Assembly (NCBI GenBank): GCA_011033025.1
Contig: WFMF01000331.1
Location: forward strand, 124,001 to 188,000
DNA from: Beroe forskalii
Lineage: Eukaryota; Ctenophora; Nuda; Beroida; Beroidae
Direction: 5' to 3'
Length of the DNA: 64,000 bases
The notes under the pieces were generated by a model. The model had not been told where the DNA came from. It did no database searches and saw only the letters and a list, made by a program, of their open reading frames with translations. The position numbers were made by a program, and so were the translations under genes. Shown here one piece after another: positions 4,301-62,400 of this stretch; position 1 is the first letter of the stretch; the number at the start of each line of letters is the position of its first letter.

Positions 4301-7300
4301 TCACCACTCAAAATGAAATCCGTACCACTTTTTAAATACACTTATGTTACCGAAGGCAACCCAGCTCATGCCATCAAAACTTCACTTACCTTTATGACTT
4401 TTTGACTGACCCATGGCAATGTGGACAGAGAGAGTAAATCTATTTTTCTGTGCTTTGGACAGAGATATAGTTGACTCAAACTGTAGTGCAGCAGTAAAGG
4501 CGGCTTGTCTGGCCTAACACCCGGACCCCCATTGCTCAGTGAAGTTCACCAAGCCAATGTCACTGAAATGCTGTTCCCAATAAAGCCAGAGCACCCAGTG
4601 GGTACCAGTGGCAACTTGCCGTCGCTATAAGTGGTGTCCCGTGGCCCCAGTGCTGGCAGTGCCCTTAAGGGTACTGTCCCCCTTACTTCCGAGTTTGGGG
4701 AACCTACAATACAATACAATACAATACAATACAAATCCTTCCATATCTTTGTATCACTCTACCTTCCTCCCCAGGGATCCTTCAGTCAATCCATCGACTC
4801 TGTCTCCCCGCATCCCATCAAACCCTCCACACAATACTGCAACAGAACAGGGACGCTGGATGAGTCAAATAACGAGACTTCCGATGCTTCGGAGCAAACG
4901 GAAAATTCCAGAGCCAGCTTTTCAAGTGGTTAGTGTTCAAAAACATTGTTCAGAAAATTCCAGTTTTGTTAGAAATTTCTGTTAAAGAAAGTTTTCCTGG
5001 AATGTGGATATCTTGCTGATTTTCGAGAAGTTCAAAAAGTTAAAGGTAATACTTTAAAGGATATTGACTATAATAGTATAATATCAGAATATCTTACATG
5101 ATTTTTCCTGGGATAATGAACTGCAGTAAATAACTTATCGTCCGAAAAAGCGGAATATCTGAGCAAGAAACTTTTGGAGGATTGAAAAATCACAACAAAC
5201 TCTTTGTGTCAGAAAAGAAATCAGCGAAACTTAAAAGACAAAGTTGTGAAGAAGTATATCAGTGAGTTTTGCTTGTTACGCTCGATAATGTTTATAGTTG
5301 TGGCGTTTTAAGTTCAGTCACCCCAGCCCTGATCATGCCTGTAAATAGTTTTATTATGAGCAATTAAAAGTAAATCCGATAATTATTAAAGGATAGTTCA
5401 AGGAATGCACTAATTCAAGGAATGTCGAAGCATGATAACCTGATCATAATAAGATATGAATTCGATTGATTGAAAAAACGCCCGGTGGGTGCTGGCATGT
5501 GCCTCAATTAATAATGAAATAAGTACAGTATCAAATGAACAATCCCTCCACGAGGGCATTCCATCTGAGGGTACATTTTAAGGGTCCATCGGGCGACTGG
5601 CCATCGAGCCACGGTTTAATTTTCCCTTTTATAACAATATTTGCAGATTGGAGAATGAGTAGGGCTGTGTGGTTGTTGATTCGTTGACTCATGATTGTAC
5701 CAGTTTTGATTTGTGCTGTTTAAAGAAAGCTGCTGATAAAAGACTGTGCTCGACTGTTTTATGACAGTTATTTCATTTTATCAGCTGATTTTGGATTGCT
5801 CAAGTTGATGGCATGAGATCAGAAAACTCACGATCCTTTTTGGTGTTCCTGCTGTCAGTAGATCTTTATTTTCTGTGAATTGATCCGCTGATCATTGAAT
5901 AATGTTTGGCTGCTCTCATGCTTGTATTTTGATTGTGTTGCATGGTTCGAAGTTAATGTTGAATTCTTAAATTTAAAACCACCTTCAAAAATTAGAAGAT
6001 CCAGAAGTATAGTAAATCGAAAAACGAAAACAAATTCAATATTCAAAAGAACCGCGCAAGAAATATTTAGTCAAAGTATGAGTCATGAGTGTCAAAATGT
6101 AAAATTTATTAAAAATGTTGTGTTGAATTAATTTTTTGTTTTTCCCAAAAAAAATGAAACTATCGCTGGTTAATTTTTATACTTATCTGTTTCTTAGATA
6201 ATTCTTGTTTATTCCTGTTTAATTTCTGATACAACTGTTGTAATGTTGTATCATTGTTGTTTTATGGAGATTATGTAAGACTTATTTGTATCTATTATTT
6301 TGGAGATAATAATATGTTCTCATAATATGTTGCAGTTTTCATATTTGCTGTTAATTGTTACACCGTAAATTTGTTAACATTTCATTGAAATTCTACATCT
6401 TTTATTTCCATTTGAAATATTTGAAACTTTTCAATTTGGTGCAAGCTGCAGCCATGATGAGTATAGATATATTATGATATTTAGAGAAACTTTTTACAGA
6501 ATCGAAATACCTGCTATGCTTTTCGAATTATTAAAAAAGTCAAAGGGGTCAAGACTTTTGGCGCACCCTGTAGTTACGCAATAGTAAGAAATCGTTCATG
6601 TAGAAGTAATGAATTTCAGTACTCAATTCCACCCCCTCTGTAATCAACTACATTAACCTTGAAGCGCCCCCAGGCCTGGAACTTCAGAAGAGCAGCTGCT
6701 AAACGAGGTGACATGGGAGCAACTGAGGTCTAAGCTGGAGGAGGTGGAGAGGAGATCCATGAACATTGCTGACATGCCTCAGGTACTGCCTCACTTGAAG
6801 GTGAATATTATTTCTCGTGGTCGCAATTATAGGAGTCTTCTTCTTTCTCCTTTTCCTCTGAAAACCTTTAGAAATATCTGCACTCATTTTTGCTTTTTGT
6901 GCAAAAACAGAGTTTTACTTTTGGGATATGATCAATCTAACCACCATATTTGTCCGCTCCAGAAAGAAAAACGGAAGATATTTTCCCGAACCAGCGTGAG
7001 TCTTCCAGCCGTGATCAGCACAGAAAGGTAGGTAATAACACGAATATTTACGGAGACAGTTCGAACTGTGGTTTTGTGTGCGCGGCGTAAGTTTGCGCGG
7101 CGTAGGACCCCGTATTTGCCGTCCGTCGTACGCGGCACTCCTCCAATAGATTGAAAATTTGGACCATTTGAAAGTCCTATCAAATCTCGCATGCAATGCT
7201 CCAGCATGGGTAATCAAGGCATGATTAAATTTGAATGAGAGATTGATGATGAAATCCAATCAATTTTATTCGTAATGTTTCTCATTTTGTGCCTCAATTC

Positions 7301-10300
7301 TTATTTCAAATCTTATTTCAAATCTCTGAAGTAAGGCTAACCGACTCAGGATATCACAGCCTTTAAGACGGTGTGTCACGATGTTCAATGACATGAAGGA
7401 GGAGACGGAGACGGACACGAGTGAGAGTCACAGCGAGCACTCAGCTGTCATATCCAGATCCAGATTTGATGAAATCTCAAAACCTATTCTTGGTAAGGGC
7501 TCAGAATATTAGGATTTTATCCAGATCCAGATTTGATGAAATCTCAAAACCTATTCTTGGTAAGGGCTTAGAATTAGGATTTTTATCCAGATCCAGATTC
7601 GATGAAATCTCAAAACCTATCCTTGGTAAGGGCTTAGAATTAGGATTTTTATCCAGATCCAATTTGATGAAATCTCAAAACCTATTCTTGGTAAGGGCTC
7701 AGGATGTTAGGACACCATGATTTTGGTAGTAGAGCCACAGCGAAAATTCTGCTGTGATATAGTGGAACCATTTATGAAAGTAATCTTTTATTAGTGATGG
7801 GTTGCATTAGCCATGAAAGCTAGAAGACTTTAAATTGGATTTTTTAGTGATGGCTTACATTGGGCTAGAACTCTAGAAGACTTTAAATTGGATTGAGAAT
7901 GCTATTGGTCTATAATAGAACTTGCTTTCACATTAGGCGATTACAAGTGCTTCATTGCAGTCGTTCTTGGTGGTCTGTTGACCTCTAAGAACTGACTCTA
8001 AGAGGGCGACTCTTAGTCTTATGAATAAGATTGAAATTAAATGTGAGATGAAAAATACCTCGTGCTATACTCTTCATCTCTCTTTCTCATGAAATATCTC
8101 CATCTCATCTCAGAATAAGATTTCATGGTTGAACCTTCGTGTCATGGAGGTAAAGATCTGTGTATACTTTGATCTGATTTATTTTCTCAAATTTTCCTTT
8201 CGATTTCTAGTTCTCACTCCATTTTACAGTATCACGGTTTCCACAATTTGCAGATATATGTAAATTTTACCCCCAGGACGTCCTTCTTGGACCTTGTCCT
8301 CTGAGCCCCCTTTTCTCCTTTTTCCGTCACTTTTTTCTCCTCAGAATGTACGTTAGAGCAGACCACTTCGCATGAATCATCAGATAGTGGCAGCTGCAGA
8401 CTGGCACCAACAATCACAGTGGAGCAGTTTGGTCCCTCAGACGGCAGCAGGTTAAACGGTGGCGTGTCGAACTCCTAATAGTAAGGGGGGGTAATGCAAA
8501 CTTTGACAAATGCTTCACTTTTTCTGGAGTTCGCCAAAAAAGTGTCTGCCAAAGTTTGCTTTACCATCCCCTTGAGTAATACTTATCGTTATATGCGCAG
8601 GGTATAAATCAAACGGAATACTGAGTTAAATCGTTATTTTCGCTTAGTTCACACGCACCAGTTGCGACAATCAAGTGGCAATAATTTTTAATGGATATCA
8701 AGTTAATTGGAATGCTAACCACCCTAACCAGGTCTGCAAGTATGGATGAGATTGAGGAGCAGACACCAATGTGTACAGTGCAGGAGGGCTCTGTGAATTC
8801 TCTCTACACTCCCGCTGATAAAGGTACCGTGAGCTTAACTCTGACACGTCTTAACCCTGACACCAATTCATTCTGACAACACTTCACTCTGACACCAATA
8901 TACTCTGACATCACTTTACTTTGACGATATCACTTCACTCTGACACCACTTCCATCTGACACCACTTCACTCTGACACCAATCCACTCTGACACCAATTC
9001 ATTCTGACACCAATTCACTCTGACACCACTTCACCCTGACACCACTTCACCCTGACACCACTTAACCCTGACACCACTTCACCCTGACACCACCCTGATA
9101 CCACTCCACCCTGATACCACTTCACTCTGACACCGCCTTGACACCATTCCACTCAGTTACCATTTCACCCTGACACCACTCCACACTGTCTCCACTTCAC
9201 CTTGACACCACATCACTCTGACACTACTTCACTCCACTCTGACACCACTCCAATCTGATACCACTTCACTCTGACACCATTTCACCCTGACACCACTCTA
9301 TTCTGTCACCAAATCATCATGAGACCACTCTACTCTAGCTCTGACTCCACATCATTTCAGTGAGACCGACATCTCCCGCCCTTTCTAACGCAAGCGAAGC
9401 CACCATAATCCCAGAACTGGAAGAAATGGTAGAGCTAACAGAATCGAAAGTTGAGGTTTGGGAATAAGACATTCGTGACCTAGTTAATCATGTTTAATTC
9501 GTACCTAAAGGACATTCACTTTGCAACGTACTTTACCAATGATCGATCATTTCATAATTCATATTGTCTCGTAACGCCGTTTCGTTTTTTTTTTTGTTTT
9601 TTTTTTGTTTTTTTTAAATATTCCATCGATAACGATTAACGAAATACCATAATTTAAGTCCTATTAAGGGCCCTATTAGGTCCTATTAAGGGTCCTATTA
9701 GGTCCTATTAAGGGACCTATTAAAGGTCATATTAACTCCTTATAAACGCCTATATCAGAGTGAGATTGTGATGGCCAAAGTGATTGTACCCCGCCGGCAG
9801 CGCCTAGTCAAGATGAAGTCAGCCGTTCTCTTCAGTTCCCTCAATCACGCCAGCTTCAAATCACCCTTCTACATCGTCACTCCCAAACTCAGATTCCACA
9901 GGAAGGTAAACTTCGAATGCAAAAAAATTCTGATTATAATCAGGGGGCTGGCAAGCCCCCCGCGGCGGTTTGCGAGCCCGAGGGCCCGAAGGGCCCGAGG
10001 GCGAGCATTGGACGGCGGTCCTAACAGTGCGAGGGCCGAAGGCCCGAGCCAAGAGCCTGAGGACCCGAAGGGTCCGAGGGCGAGCATTGACGGCGGACCT
10101 AACAGTGCGAGGGCCGAAGGCCTGAGCGTGAGCCTGAGGACCCGAAGGGTCCGAGGGCGAGCATTGAACGGCGATCCTTACAGTAAACGAGCTTCCGGAC
10201 ATCGGAAGTGAGTTTTGTTAACTTTGCTTGCCAGCCCCCAACTATATGTTTTCATGGATTGGCCATATTTCACGTTATAATTTGAGTAAGTTCCCGTTGC

Positions 10301-37438: not shown

Positions 37439-40400
37439 TCTGCATTCATAATACGAAATGATTTACCTAATTCAATATAATAACGAATTTTACTTCATAA
37501 TATTGACGTACTCAAAGAATTTCTTGTGACGTGCTATTTCAGTATTTTAATAACCAACTCCCGAGGCAACGTGTAATTCTGTAAGATTACATTCTTTGTG
37601 AAATCCCTACATTGTATGTTGAACGCAATTAATACGCTAATTATAATACGCAATTAATGCGCAAATAAGGGGATTGGGATGATGTCCTTATCAGGGACAC
37701 AACCTTTTCTTAGACCTCCAGAGATTGAAGTTTCTTAGACATTTTGTCCCGACAAAACTAGGGTAGCTTTGTGAGTGTGGTACTGAAATTAGAGCGATTA
37801 TTTGTCCTGCAATTAAGCTTCCCGCTTGTTTCTGAAATATCGTGGCATAGGATAGCGCTTTAAGGTATATGAAATGGCCGCCATCACATTGCTGGACTGA
37901 TTACAGTAACTGCCTTAATTCCAGTCCCTGATGTTGTTAATTGACTGAATATACAATAATTCAGTCCATTGATAGAAAATTGATAAAATTTCAATCTAAC
38001 AAACAGGGGCTCAACAAACTGACAAAGAAGGACTGTTAACGTGTTCACTATCGAAAGTTCCCGTAGGGGATTGCCTTTTTTAAGTATTGAAAAGTATTAA
38101 CAAAAAGTTATAAAGCAATAAAGACTGGACAATGGACATGTACTAGCCTTTTCTAAAAGTATGAGAGCAGCGAATATGGTTTTTAAAGCTGAGTCCCTAG
38201 TAGTACAATGTACGGGTACGGCCAACACAATTGCTGGAGTCTGTAACTTTTTCTTCTTCAATGATAATACGGCCTTCGCTGAGTGCCCTTTCCTTTTGAA
38301 TATTGAGAAAGAATATTGAAATTTAAAGACGTGACAAAAGCAATGTAACAACGTGACAAAAGCAATGTAACAACGGAACAAAAGCGATGTTCCGACGCAA
38401 CAAAAGGCACGGGAAGGTTTTTGGTCTGGACTGCAGGTGTATAACACCCATGTACAAGTACACAAGCTTTGTAATTTGTAATTAGGAACACAATTGGTAA
38501 CTGCCATTACACCTTTGAGGACCCGGAACATAAACATTATGAGAACAAGCGAGGGTGACGTTACCATCAAAGTTAATAGTGAGTTGATGACGTCAAAGTT
38601 AATTATTCTGTTGAGTTGATGACGTCATCATCCTAGTTAACATTGAGTTGATCCCGATACCCGAGACTTTACCACTATCAGAGGACAGTGGGGGAAGAGA
38701 ATTATAACTGTGAACCATATCGGAGACTTTGCCACTTATACTAGAGGGCAGAGGGGGATGGTGGGGACTACCACCATCCCCAATTCGTGTTTTCCAAAAT
38801 ATGAGAGTCGAACCCCTCCCCCTTAAAATAGTGAGTTTATGACGTCATCATTATCGAGACTTTACCACTCTCAGAGGGCTGAGGAAATCATGGAACTGGC
38901 CCCATATCTGAGACTTTGCCACTATGAGAAGACAGAGGGAACTGACCCCTTATCCAAGACTTTACCACTCATGAACTGACCCCATACCCCGAGACTCCAG
39001 CAAACAAAGCTAGGAAAGGAAACACAAATCGCACTCTCTTCCATAATGACCGTCCCGAACTATTCAAACCATTATTTGGTACCCCGAAATTCCCCTGAAC
39101 GGCGATAAGACAGATTCGAATCATTATCTCTTTATCCTGAGTTTCGTGGCGTCTCCCAGCACTCACTTCCCATTGTCAGGAGAGTGACATCATTAAGGGT
39201 GGTGTGTTTGTGACGTCATTATAATGGTTTAGGCCGGTATGTTGATGACATAGAGTAGTTCCGATTGCTTCGTTTCATCTAAGGCACTCTTCAGCGTTAC
39301 ACAATCATCACTTTATCTCTATATTGCCCAAGCCAAATAGGGTGGACCGGGTTACGTAATAAGTGTTGTGACCGAATCCGAAAAGATGTTGTGAAAGAAT
39401 GGATCAGTGAAACTTATATCGAAGGATGTTACCCCACCCCGCGCGCGCAACGTTCCACATTATTTTGGACGGTCACAATTGCGCTGACCACCCAGTCATG
39501 TCAGAGGAATAAGAAGGACAATGTCCGTGGAAACTTATATCGAACAATTCATCAGCAATATATTGTAACATTCCATCGCCACCCATTAAGATGGCGGAAA
39601 CTTGATCGAAAAATGCCAGGGAACGAAGGATCAAGATGCTCCGCGCCATCATACCAATTTGGAATAATCAGTGCGTCGTCAGCACACCGTTTTAACCATG
39701 ATAATGACGTCATTTAGCTATCACTCGCGATCCCCATAATGTCATCGGAAGCAAACAGATATTTTGTCAGAATTTTGAGTGTTTCCATGAAATTCCCTGG
39801 GCGCGGTGAGACAAGTCGTAAGTTTATAACACTACTGTGTGAGAAGACTGAACTGTACATGCAGTCACGCCAAAAGGAAGGCGGTCCGGTGCCCTGTAAT
39901 AGCAATCAAAGTCATGATATATTCGTAAAGTCATGATAGCAACCGTTACTGTAGCAACCGCTACTCCAGCAACCGCTACTCTAGCAACCGCTACTCAAGC
40001 AACCGCTACTCAAGCAACTTAAGCGTGTCTATAATGGTTGGGGTCAGGATTAGGGCTTGCAATTGTTAGTTTTAGAGTAAAGATTAAGGTTAGGGCTATG
40101 GTTAGGGTCATGGTTAAAGTTAAGTTTACTGGTTTAGGGTTAGGATATTAAAAGATCGAGGTTTTGATCTGAGACGTCTTCAGAGCCGTTTATTGGGGAG
40201 ACATACCATTTCCCTGACGAGTGATAACTTACCCGTCCAACTCAAACAAAAAGCCAGCATTCACTTTTCAAGGCGTGACCCTCCAAACCTAGTCCTATCC
40301 GCCCTTTTCCCACCAATAATTCTTTTTTACTTTCCTTTTCTCATTCGTTTAGGAGTACAGTTCGCTGGTTTGTGCATAGAAGTAAAGAGAAAGAAACAAA

Positions 40401-40869
40401 ATCTTGACAAAATCTTGACAAATAAGTACAATTATGACTCACAAAAGAACCCAATGAAACACAACGATCCTTATTAAACTGATAATAATCGCCTAAACTG
40501 GGATAGGAAGGTCTTATTGACATTCCTTGTAGCATATTTTAAAACAAACACATGAGAGTCTGTAAAACGTAAAATATTGGCTGACACTATTATAATGAAA
40601 GTTCTCTGCAAGATTCACAAGTCAAAAGTCTACAGGGTCACGTGATTCTAAGTTCATTGTAGCTGCTCTCGATTATACCTGAGATATTGAGTTATTTGTA
40701 ATTCTAAATTTACAAGCGTAGTCTTTGAGCTAAATTAATAGTTTTTCGCCCTTTACTAATAATCAGGTTTTCACCGTTTTCAATATTTTGTGAACGATTT
40801 GGAACAGGAAAAAATTAAATAGAGCCACGATTATGGATTACGGTAAATAGGGGCGTGAAGCAGCCTTAC
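37439..40869. other. Non-coding stretch with minisatellites
   Basis: About 38645-38995 holds diverged units with GAGACTTTACCACTATCAGA and ACTGACCCCATA. Positions 39941-40018 hold about six AGCAACCGCTACTC units (16 bp). Positions 40020-40150 are TTAGGG-rich but degenerate. About 38330-38400 holds ACAAAAGCAATGTAACAACG repeats. A minus-strand segment near 40515 (CCTATCCCAG acceptor, then LGDYYQFNKDRC) might be a last exon of the peptide-precursor gene, but this is weak. Confidence 0.5.
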
Positions 40870-42876
40870 CTGCAGCCAATCATCCTCCTCCGCTGCTGAC
40901 CTCTTCCCAAAACTCCCCTGCTTCCTCCTGAGGGAATGGTTCGATCAAATGCTGCGATCAAAAATTTTTTGGCCTTAATTGTGAGAGCTGTTCACGTTTG
41001 ATTATCACGTTCGATTACAGAGAGGGAGGGGGTAGAAAATACCCAAATTGATTACGTTGGAATTTTAAAATATCCATAGAGCTGAATACTTACCTTTTCC
41101 CTCCTCTCGTTTTCCGAAGACACCCCCTGAAATAATACACCGATAAAGCATGGCGACTTTACTACAGTGGCAGTTCGAACTGCAGTTTTGTGTGCTTGGC
41201 GTAAGTTTGCGCGGCGTACAGACATGTTATTCATATGTCTTTTATACGCCGCGCAAACTTACGCCGCGCGCACATGAAACTGCAGTCGAACTGTAACCGT
41301 TAGATGTAGCTATTACTTCATATTTTAATCTCATTGCTATATCTACAACTTCATATGAAACAAGTACTGCGCCCACTGCGGCACTGCGCAAATCACAAAT
41401 TTCAATCTGGTCATGAGACTTCGAATTTAAGAATTTATGTTATTCGTGCACAGTTAATCTTGATGAAAAGACCCTCTATTATTTTTCTTCTTTTCTTCTC
41501 TTTTGCCGAATACGTCCCCTGAAAAGAAAAAAAAAGGATTTAAAAAAATGTTTTTTGTAAAGAATTTTAAATAATGAGTTAAAATTAGTACTCGATCTTC
41601 ATTCTAAAAGTTTGTTACTTTCAATTCAATTCATTGGCAATTCGGTCCAATATGCCGCAATATATCATTTTTACACGCAGTTCAATAATACATAGTTCGG
41701 CTATTGTCATGTGTCAGTGCAAAGCATGGGGCCATTCAGCACTCCCTGTTTCCCTTTTTCTTTTCTTCCCTTTTACCAAATACGTCCCCTGGGAAGTCGG
41801 ACAGTCAGAGATTAAATTCTAAAGGAAGAAATGAATCGAAATGGATGTGCCATGTCTCCATAGCTTAAGTCTCTTGTTATCAATGTTTAAATGTTTGCTC
41901 ATCCTCAACTCGATCCATAGTCTTCAATGTTCCTGTTCTTTTGGGGTTTGGGTATAAATTGTTGAGGCGTAGCTAGGATATTGATGGAGTAATAAATATA
42001 AAACTTACTGTTTCGCTTTTCCTCCCTTTTGCCAAAAACTCCTCCTAAATAATAAATATTCGATCAGTTGATCAGCAAAGTATCATAATTTATTTGTGAA
42101 CTAAGCAAAGTATCATAATTTATTTTCCAACTAAAGAACTAATACCTACGTGATACTGATTTAAAAAAATAAAGTTATTGAAAAAAAAAACACAACAAAA
42201 ACAATAACAGCAAAAACAAAAATTAATACAGGAAATTTCCGAATAGTTATCCTTCCGTATGATGTCGCGGAACAGTATCTAAATACAAGTCAAATGCACT
42301 TACTATTATTCTTTCCCTCTCGTTTAACTACAGATTCTTCTGAAAAATACGTTGAACAATATTAGTAAAATGTGAAGTTGGGAAAAATGTTGAATTTCAC
42401 AAAATATTCCAGAAAAGCGTAAAACATAATAGGTCCAGAGTGATTTGGGAGAGCAACTAACGAGATTTTCTCCAAAAAGTTTATCTCACCTCGCTTTTCT
42501 TCCACTGTCGTCTCGTCGTTGTCTGAAAATTGCATTGTTTTAACTTGAAAAAGATTATGAAAAATGAAATACATAAAATCATGGATCATAGTGTATGTAC
42601 TTGAATTGCGTTAACCTATTTTATACACTTACAGGGGCACTTCGAACTGCAGTTTGCGCGTCTTTTCTGTGCGCGGCTTAAGTTTGCGCGGCGTACAGAT
42701 ATATGTCTGTACGATGCGAACACAAAAGACGCGCAAACTGCAGTTCCAACTGTCACCGTTATTTAAAACTCACCATTCAAGAGAACCTCTTCCCTCATTT
42801 CCTCATCAGTGTCGCATGTAACGTTGCTAATAGCAACCGTTGCTATAACTAGCGCTACTGACCACCACATTGCCAT
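40870..42876 (-). CDS. Putative multi-copy amidated neuropeptide precursor, 8 micro-exons seen
   Basis: Exons on the minus strand: 42876-42774, 42522-42490, 42339-42304, 42044-42009, 41788-41747, 41518-41477, 41126-41094, 40927-40870. Exon 1 encodes a signal peptide (MAMWWSVALVIATVAIS). Every junction from exon 1 to exon 8 is phase 1. Exons 4-7 read R-GVFGKREEKRN, R-DVFGKREEKKKGN, R-DVFGKREEKKKNN and R-GVFGKREEGK; exon 3 is related (ESVVKREGKNN). F-G-K-R is the classic signal for cleavage and C-terminal amidation, so products like NRDVF-amide and NRGVF-amide are expected, with acidic EEK spacers between. Exon 8 reads GGSRGVLGRGQQ in phase 1, but RKQGSFGKRSAAEEDD in phase 2, which also fits the pattern. 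Donors of exons 5 and 6 read GG and GA instead of GT. The stop codon was not located. Confidence 0.7.
41165..41302. mobile_element. Foldback MITE family A, copy 6
   Basis: Whole palindrome (AGTGGCAGTTCGAACTGCAG ... GAACTGTAACCGTTA) in the intron between exons 6 and 7 of the peptide-precursor gene. Confidence 0.85.
42632..42761. mobile_element. Foldback MITE family A, copy 7
   Basis: Whole palindrome (CACTTCGAACTGCAGTTTGC ... AACTGTCACCGTTA) in the first intron of the peptide-precursor gene, just after the exon 1 donor. Confidence 0.85.
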
Positions 42877-59468: not shown

Positions 59469-62400
59469 ATGATGCAAGAAGATCGATTAAGTTCTGTTAC
59501 AGTTGTTTTAGGTTCGCAGTGGGGAGATGAGGGCAAGGGAAAAGTTGTAGATATGCTTGCTGAAGAGATGGATATTGTTGCTCGATGTCAGGTATAGCCT
59601 GAAATTTCACATTCTGTTTACAATGAGGTACATACTGCACAATGCTAACATAAATGATTTTTAAACAATTTGAAATAAATACCTTTTAGTCGATTAGTTC
59701 CTAGCAATTTTTAATCAGACAAAATATTTAACCTGAAGAATTGTTTTTGAGGATTTGAATAATCTGTCTTCCAGTACCATGACTTGATTTTTGACCCATT
59801 TCCTCTGAAGGGAGGTAATAATGCAGGACACACAGTTGTTGTAGGAGAGACCCACTATGATTTCCACCTCTTACCATCTGGAATTGTGTATGATAATGTG
59901 ACATGTGTCATTGGAAATGGTGTTGTGGTTCATATTCCATCACTCTTTGAGGAGATTGATAAAAACAAAGCCAAGGGTATGTAGGGATGGCTGCTGTTAG
60001 GAACTTCAATGCTAGTTTAAAATTTAAATACTGAACCAGCAATTGAGTAACTTTATGCTGAACCGAATCCTGTGACTCAGTATGTATCTAAGGTCTAGTG
60101 CTCTTATAATTGATCACATTATCAGGGCTCAATGGTATTGAAGGGAGGCTGGTGATTTCTGACAGAGCTCATGTTGTAACTGATGCTCATCAAGTGGTTG
60201 ATGGACTGTATGAGCAAGAAAAACAGAGTAACAGCCTTGGAACAACAAAGAAAGGTAAAATAAATTGGTTCTTCCAATGAATAAACCCACTGATTTATCA
60301 TTTACATGAAAAACATAACATGACAAATTTTTATCCAATCTTTCCCTTCCCTGGTTTGTAGATGATTGTTTGTGTTTCATTTCTAAACTTGATTTTCTAG
60401 GGATATTTCATTTCTAAATTAAAATGGACATTGATTTTCCAGGGATTGGTCCTACCTATGCTGGGAAGATGCAGCGTATAAATCTAAGGCTCTGTGATGT
60501 CATTGGAGATAAGGAAGCACTGAGTACCAAGCTTTCTGCTATAATCAATGACCACCAGCTCAGATTTCGAGATCATGTCTTTGATACAGAGATGGAAAAG
60601 TTTGAAATGTTTCGAGATAGGATCAAACCTATGGTGAAGGTATGCAAGATAATTTCAAACCACATTTTTACGGATAAATATTAGTTTGTTAATTGTTGAA
60701 AAATCTTAGAAATTGACTCAAAATATTTCGTAAATGCTTGTGTTTCAGTCATGATGTTTTATTTAGAATACTTTATATTTTGATTGGTGGCCTGTTGTAA
60801 AGATTTTACATAGGACTTGCCTTCAGCAAGACCTTTAGATGCTTTGATATCTATAGACTATTTGCTATTAGATAAATTTTAATTCTATTTCTGTGTTATA
60901 ACAGTGGCAGGTCAAACTGCAGTTTTGTGTATATGGCATATAAGTTTGTGGGGCATGCAGACTGTACAAACAAAACTGTAGTTCAAACTGTCACCATAAA
61001 ACCTTATAATTTAACTGAATTGAATATTTTCAGGACTCAGTAGTGATGATGAATGAAGCACTCTCTACTAACAAGAAAATTCTGGTAGAAGGAGCCAATG
61101 CATCCATGCTTGACATTGACTTTGGTAAGTCCTAAACTTGTTAATGTGGTTATGTAGACTTGTTATTTAAATGCAAAACCAATAATGGTTTATAATTCAT
61201 CACCTTTATGAAGAGCTATATGAGCGAATACTGCTGCTTCAACATAGTAACCTCTGCACTGCAATATTCTACTTGGCTTTGTTCTATAGCTCCATAATTA
61301 GCTTTCTCTTTGGTACTTTCTCTGTTTCTCTTGGACCAGATAACTCCTACAAAACGTATATCTCCCTTGTTTCAGGAACATATCCCTATGTGACCAGTAG
61401 CAACTGTACAGTTGGTGGGGTGTGCACAGGACTTGGGATACCTCCCCGGAGGATAGATCATATTGTGGGTGTTGTCAAGGCTTACACAACCCGAGTTGGG
61501 GCTGGAACCTTCCCTACTGAGCTGAAAGATGAAATAGGCAAGTCTTTTCTGGGTTCTGTATGTGGTTCTACAGTCTGCAGTCTGCACTCACAGACTGTAA
61601 CTTAATAACGAATACTGTTACTTAATAACATCTCTTTATTGGAAGGTGAAGCAATGGCTGACATTGGACACGAGTACGGGGTGACTACCGGAAGAAGACG
61701 GCGGTGTGGCTGGCTAGACCTCATGGTCCTCAAGTACAGTCACATGATCAACGGATTTACCAAATTAGCTGGGGAGAAAAGGGGGCATCGTCATGAACTC
61801 TCATTATATTTATTTCACTGGAATCTAATGTCCTAAAATATATTGCCCCTGCAATTGATCCTCCAATCTTAGATTATAAAATCTCCCAAATTTGATATTT
61901 CTCCCAAATTAGCTGTAACGAAGTTGGACATCCTCGACACTTTCACTGAGTTGAAGATCTGCGTGGGTTACAAAGTAGATGGGGTAGAACTGCCCAGCTT
62001 TCCAGCGGACCATTCAGTGCTGGAGAGAATAGAACCCGTCTACATCACGATCAAGGTGGGGAAGCCAAGCAATCAATCTACCCAAATTAGTAAACCCAAT
62101 GAATAGAATCCAAATAAGATATATTGACCTTTTCATCACTAGTTCAAAACTAGACTCATAATACTAGTATCATTTTGTTTTATATGTTCAGTACTATGTT
62201 GGACGAACACAACAATATAATTCAAACGTTTCTTTTCAAATTATTTAGCCCGTTAAATTCAACATCCTTTCCCAGGGCTGGGAATGCCCGACTGTTGACT
62301 GCAGGACTTTTGATAGTCTGCCTGAACAAGCCAAGCTGTATATCAAAACTATTGAAGATTTCGTTGGTGTCAAAAGTGAGTGATTTTCAGCAAAACTTTC

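Follow-up and report, generated by a model that had tools for sequence, protein, structure and literature searches.

The minus strand of the 64,000-nucleotide stretch of Beroe forskalii DNA analysed here (the window) very probably carries a genuine gene, kept under constraint, for a secreted precursor of multiple amidated peptides. A precursor of this kind, with one peptide to each small phase-1 exon, had been proposed from the letters alone (the sequence-only reading), and the proposal is backed by the sequence itself, by the pattern of selection on the peptide codons and by exons for the amidating enzyme in the genome.

Organisation of the gene and its surroundings

The bodies of the claimed signal-peptide exon and of the seven exons of 33–58 nt that follow it are all present on the minus strand, and the four copies of R-[G/D]-VFGKREE lie, as claimed, in exons 4, 5, 6 and 7. 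The exons are listed below in the order of transcription.

Exon 1, 42774..42876, minus strand: 103 nt; ATG, signal peptide MAMWWSVALVIATVAISNVTC, then DTDEEMREEVLLN as the acidic beginning of the propeptide; donor GTGAGT
Exon 2, 42490..42522, minus strand: 33 nt; DNDETTVEEKR; donor GTGAGA
Exon 3, 42304..42339, minus strand: 36 nt; EESVVKREGKNN; donor GTAAGT
Exon 4, 42009..42044, minus strand: 36 nt; RGVFGKREEKRN, including RGVFGKREE; donor GTAAGT
Exon 5, 41747..41788, minus strand: 42 nt; RDVFGKREEKKKGN, including RDVFGKREE; AG acceptor, GGGAGT in place of a GT donor
Exon 6, 41477..41518, minus strand: 42 nt; RDVFGKREEKKKNN, including RDVFGKREE; AG acceptor, GAGGGT in place of a GT donor
Exon 7, 41094..41126, minus strand: 33 nt; RGVFGKREEGK; donor GTAAGT
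Exon 8, 40870..40927, minus strand: 58 nt; GGSRGVLGRGQQRRRMIGC, including the variant RGVLGR; donor CAG/GTAAGG, phase 2

The start ATG at 42876 lies in a good context (ACCATGG). The signal peptide, whose cleavage site was placed by eye, has a 12-residue core with a mean hydropathy of 2.38, a value reached by 13 of the window's 563 open ATG starts. Reading and translation of the minus strand revealed an AG acceptor and phase-1 entry for all seven of exons 2–8, with the frame open through every exon body, and the AG of exon 6 is preceded by pyrimidines at 17 of 17 positions. Exons 1, 2, 3, 4, 7 and 8 are followed by GT donors that match 5–6 of the 6 consensus positions. The description of the seven exons as joined in phase 1 is thus correct for their entry but not throughout for their exit, as exons 5 and 6 lack GT and exon 8 leaves in phase 2.

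Motifs for amidation and cleavage in the precursor are VFGKR, found four times (exons 4–7), and VLGR, found once (exon 8). Exon 3 (repeat family D1), which at the DNA level resembles exon 6 at 64% over 42 nt, looks like a relative that lacks the amidation Gly. The full model, including the exon 9 discussed below, comprises 142 residues. Its only Pfam match, to Nucleoporin_FG (E 0.0019; 19.4 bits, below the cut-off of 32.2), was attributed to repeat composition and rejected as a known domain, and no solved structure matched the precursor at E 1.

Two of the introns contain inverted-repeat elements.

Intron 1 element, 42631..42759, no strand assigned: inverted repeat with arms of 44 nt that are 84% complementary
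Intron 6 element, 41164..41286, no strand assigned: inverted repeat with many copies in the genome

These two account for 89 of the 90 DNA matches to the locus, of which 2 are the elements themselves and many are counted on both strands. By their look, the palindromic repeats may represent a non-autonomous transposon.

Further observations were made in the window. An adenylosuccinate synthetase exon (PF00709, E 9e-26) at 61186–61605 on the plus strand gave the sole Pfam match among the 10 large open frames scanned. At 1855–2571, a continuously open frame contains a segment (FNPHDIVSGDWNGQVFSYPILFYPGMARCLFPI, with variants) that is repeated, and part of this region is also open in a second frame. 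Downstream of the gene, a degenerate CCCTAA-like run lies at 40040–40150 on the minus strand.

The assembly also includes a mitogenome (C1134) of 13,339 bp with a G+C content of 17.5%, which has the only COX1 match in the genome and in which no tRNA was detected; its genes other than COX1 were named by eye. The published account of three B. forskalii mitogenomes gives 13,357, 13,339 and 13,338 bp, a mean G+C content of 17.3%, no conserved tRNA, and URF1 and URF2 after ND5 (PMC6991124). C1134 likewise has two large unnamed frames after ND5, the second of which spans 939 nt from stop to stop, compared with the 669 bp reported for URF2 (PMC6991124). Over 346 nt, the start of the large frame after ND5 at 7545–8649 shares 82% identity with a shorter frame at 4310–4691, 3 kb upstream, as if this unnamed frame had begun as a partial gene duplication.

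Constraint on the repeated codons and search for related loci

The DNA pattern for VFGKREE has five matches in the 216,145,372-base assembly, four of them within 938 bases at the locus, and the reversed control has none. Variation among the four copies, each of 21 nt, affects 6 of the 7 third codon positions and 1 of the 14 first and second ones (Fisher p = 8.5e-4), the latter being a synonymous Arg change. In a neutral simulation with an assumed ancestor and copies treated as independent, VFGKREE was retained in all four copies in 0 of 200,000 runs. The VFGKREE codons are under purifying selection. Chance clustering of the motif is ruled out by the genome motif count, the reversed control and the synonymous bias.

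Exons 5 and 6 differ by six synonymous and one non-synonymous codons and retain the coding part to the last codon in both, and the introns flanking them show no similarity above chance. From the synonymous differences and the dissimilar introns we infer that the duplication giving exons 5 and 6 is old and that both copies were translated over much of the time since.

The fifth VFGKREE match in the assembly reads YVFGKREDDEGG followed by a stop, in a stretch of low-quality appearance (L015; G000:C181:304058-307077), and was taken as a chance occurrence. Unusual runs in which bases are doubled or quadrupled give that stretch the look of a poor consensus, and one may ask whether the assembly contains base errors locally.

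Looser patterns were searched for paralogues and other candidate precursors. FGKR[DE][DE] gave 16 matches in the genome against 21 for the reversed control; four of the 16 are the locus, and the 12 others, whose reading covered all fragments except L020 and L021, all lie more than 2 kb from one another. N[VIM]FGK[RS] gave 10 matches against 9 for the control, none of them clustered, which on reading proved to be eight GKS and two lone GKR. For [VIM]FGK[RS][DE] the counts were 35, including the four of the locus, and 30 in the control. An excess was observed for [VIM]FGR[RS][DE] (34 against 17 for the control), which is due in part to one repeated word present 7 times. Among the 31 and 34 other matches to the latter two patterns, the surroundings of six were read, other than those of the match pairs on C366 (spacing 3.8 kb) and C181 (spacing 9 kb), and none of the six was precursor-like. 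In these searches of the genome with related endings, which are blind to other basic sites and to codons split by introns, no second tight cluster was found. In one region seen (L053; G000:C187:82000-91000), a large gene that by eye resembles a receptor, with Cys repeats and hydrophobic segments like those of a seven-helix receptor, has two almost identical parts separated by 5.4 kb.

Exons without GT donors and the 3' end

Exon 5 ends at ACA/GGGAGT and exon 6 at ATA/GAGGGT. When read on, exon 5 continues as ...GNREC, with a stop after three further residues (REC), and exon 6 as ...NNRGSFHQD, with a stop after seven (RGSFHQD). GGGAGT matches 5 of the 6 donor consensus positions, and 0.3% of the non-GT hexamers in the window do as well or better; the corresponding values for GAGGGT are 4 of 6 and 4.4%. 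The GT located 4 bases past each of these exons was rejected as a donor, being weak (2/9 and 4/9 matches for exons 5 and 6, respectively) and, as judged by eye, shifting the frame of the following peptide exon. Joining of exon 4 to exon 7 preserves the frame, because exons 2–7 are multiples of three in phase 1. We commit to a model in which exons 1–4, 7 and 8 would be spliced regularly, exons 5 and 6 would for the most part be left out or serve as alternative terminal exons, and exon 8 would join the Cys-rich last exon proposed below.

Joining of all eight exons is a serious contender, if somewhat short of probable; here exons 5 and 6 would in truth have GT donors (the bases read being errors or an allele), or GG and GA would be used as such. 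A single open frame would result, GGGAGT of exon 5 departs from GTGAGT only at position +2, and both exons keep their coding sequence to the last codon with the largely synonymous differences given above. Against this, independent errors at +2 would be required in two adjacent exons, the site of exon 6 matches just 4 of 6 positions, animals very rarely have GG or GA donors, and no second allele or copy of the locus for comparison was found among the 40 candidates scored out of 1024 DNA candidates. The more specific proposal that each of exons 5 and 6 serves as an alternative last exon, spliced from exon 4 and bringing its own stop, so that isoforms differ in the last amidated peptide, seems unlikely, though the intact acceptors, the conserved peptide codons and the stops 3 and 7 residues beyond the two exons agree with it. 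Against it, the sequence 3' of exon 5 is still donor-like, and a search of introns 5 and 6 for two polyadenylation signals (AATAAA and ATTAAA) found no AATAAA between either exon and the next, and only one ATTAAA, at 41329 after exon 6. A decaying gene, with exons 5 and 6, or even the entire locus, no longer functional, would explain the loss of two donors and an exon 3 without the amidation Gly; as all exon bodies are open, the peptide codons strongly constrained and the other donors strong, we regard decay as very improbable.

The sequence-only reading had given no stop codon; unspliced exon 8 runs into an in-frame TAA at 40868–40866, which lies inside a donor, CAG/GTAAGG, that leaves in phase 2 and fits the consensus at 8 of 9 positions. 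Two further features were recorded downstream.

Exon 9 (proposed last coding exon), 40514..40559, minus strand: (R)LSCVCFKICYKECQ and stop, following exon 8; acceptor ttttacag
Possible polyadenylation signal, 40189..40194, minus strand: AATAAA downstream of exon 9

Splicing of exon 8 to the acceptor at 40559 gives a Cys-rich end, CRLSCVCFKICYKECQ, followed by a stop, and acceptor-like sites before 40586 and 40580 lead in the same frame to the same Cys-rich tail with extra residues. At least 4 Cys in 15 residues, read in the phase left by exon 8, were found for 4 of the 3269 acceptor-like sites in the window (with a frame ending within 60 residues) and, among those with a better pyrimidine tract, for 1 of 691, which is the acceptor at 40559 itself; this acceptor was picked by eye among 36 such sites in the 1.5 kb downstream. 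The tail of exon 9 has an odd number of Cys (five), which counts against the exon 9 model. Taken together, these data are suggestive of a joining of exon 8 to a Cys-rich exon 9 at 40559.

Predicted peptides and relation to known precursors

The signal peptide would direct the precursor into the secretory pathway, where a prohormone convertase is predicted to cleave after KR, KKK, K and RR sites, a carboxypeptidase to remove the basic residues, and peptidylglycine amidating enzyme (PAM) to convert the exposed Gly to a C-terminal amide. The products expected from this processing are xNR[G/D]VF-amides, namely NNRGVFa, NRDVFa and GNRDVFa, with NRGVFa if the DVF exons are skipped, and in addition GGSRGVL-amide. 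Splicing, processing, release and receptor action of the VF peptides are all deduced from the sequence. Of the two products named in the sequence-only reading, NRDVFa and NRGVFa, the second would directly follow a dibasic site only if exon 4 joins exon 7. If every exon is included, the GVF products would be NNRGVF-amide or longer forms, unless their N termini are trimmed.

A profile search of the genome with PF03712, the copper domain of PAM, gave 5 matches above the cut-off on 3 contigs, and the copy on C175 retains FRTHTH. A PAM-like copper domain on C411 (L038, 59552–59725) has an in-frame TAG and is possibly a dead copy.

The E- and K-rich repeats would also suit a secreted acidic and basic repeat protein that is not processed to signalling peptides. 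However, the same hydrophobic core followed by Gly-Lys-Arg in four copies, and by Gly-Arg in a fifth, together with the description of an amidated -GVF peptide from another ctenophore, makes such a protein highly improbable. It is also conceivable, if quite unlikely, that this one gene chooses its peptides by splicing and not by cleavage: GVF-amides would come from the regular micro-exons, DVF-amides only from isoforms ending in one of the two duplicated exons that have lost their donors, and a separate Cys-rich peptide, MIGCRLSCVCFKICYKECQ, would be freed at RRR from the full-length isoform.

The sequence-only reading knew of no described family with the core of these peptides. This has to be corrected, since the NVFa/NIFa family of ctenophores, with its GVFa peptide, was already described (PMC9525235). 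In that study, the precursors NVFa/NIFa1 and NVFa/NIFa2 of Bolinopsis mikado are reported from mass spectrometry, ML40299a and ML16906a are given as the Mnemiopsis counterparts of NVFa/NIFa1 and 2, and GVFa is contained in the NVFa precursor, the peptide being MHGVFamide and the antigen Cys-MHGVFamide (PMC9525235). Acidic residues are reported there as cleavage sites in ctenophore precursors, which fits the EE after each VFGKR copy in Beroe (PMC9525235).

The locus belongs to a ctenophore (Beroe), as do the NVFa/NIFa precursors, and is predicted to share with that family short amidated peptides with -VF-amide ends, including GVF-amide (PMC9525235). The endings at the locus are GVF, DVF and one GVL, with R before each, whereas the N-V-F and N-I-F that give the family its name are absent from the locus. 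The likeness lies in the GVF ending alone, the published precursors having been compared through their descriptions. We consider it rather likely that the locus is the Beroe member of the NVFa/GVFa family. The GVFa-positive cells of B. mikado are described as lacking visible neurites and are placed in the pharynx by a figure legend (PMC9525235); as a first guess, the Beroe peptides may have a role in the pharynx or in feeding. A full-text literature search, which covered few subscription papers, gave no match for VFGKREE and no relevant literature beyond PMC9525235 for ML40299a, ML16906a, MHGVF, NVFamide or GVFamide; among the matches listed for neuropeptides of B. forskalii, none contains the species name.

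A C-terminal -VF-amide is shared also with the mollusc PXVFamides, or Mytilus inhibitory peptides, which have a Pro-x-Val-Phe core (PMC4200219). Membership in this group was rejected, as the Beroe peptides have R-[G/D]-V-F with Pro in no copy, and we infer that the likeness is due to convergence. The echinoderm SALMFamide genes resemble the Beroe gene in encoding a multi-copy amidated precursor with a separate signal-peptide exon; in the two species whose genomes are described there, all the peptides come from one exon (PMC3594158), in contrast to one exon per peptide in Beroe.

Ctenophores are a possible sister group of all other animals. In a cluster analysis, their peptide precursors had no similarity to cnidarian or bilaterian ones (PMC9525235). 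Precursors that can be traced between ctenophore orders therefore inform what the nervous system shared at its origin. If the assignment is true, a Beroe member would extend the GVFa family beyond lobate ctenophores to an animal that preys on other ctenophores. The exon layout lets one see directly how copies of a peptide arise, diverge and may be silenced.
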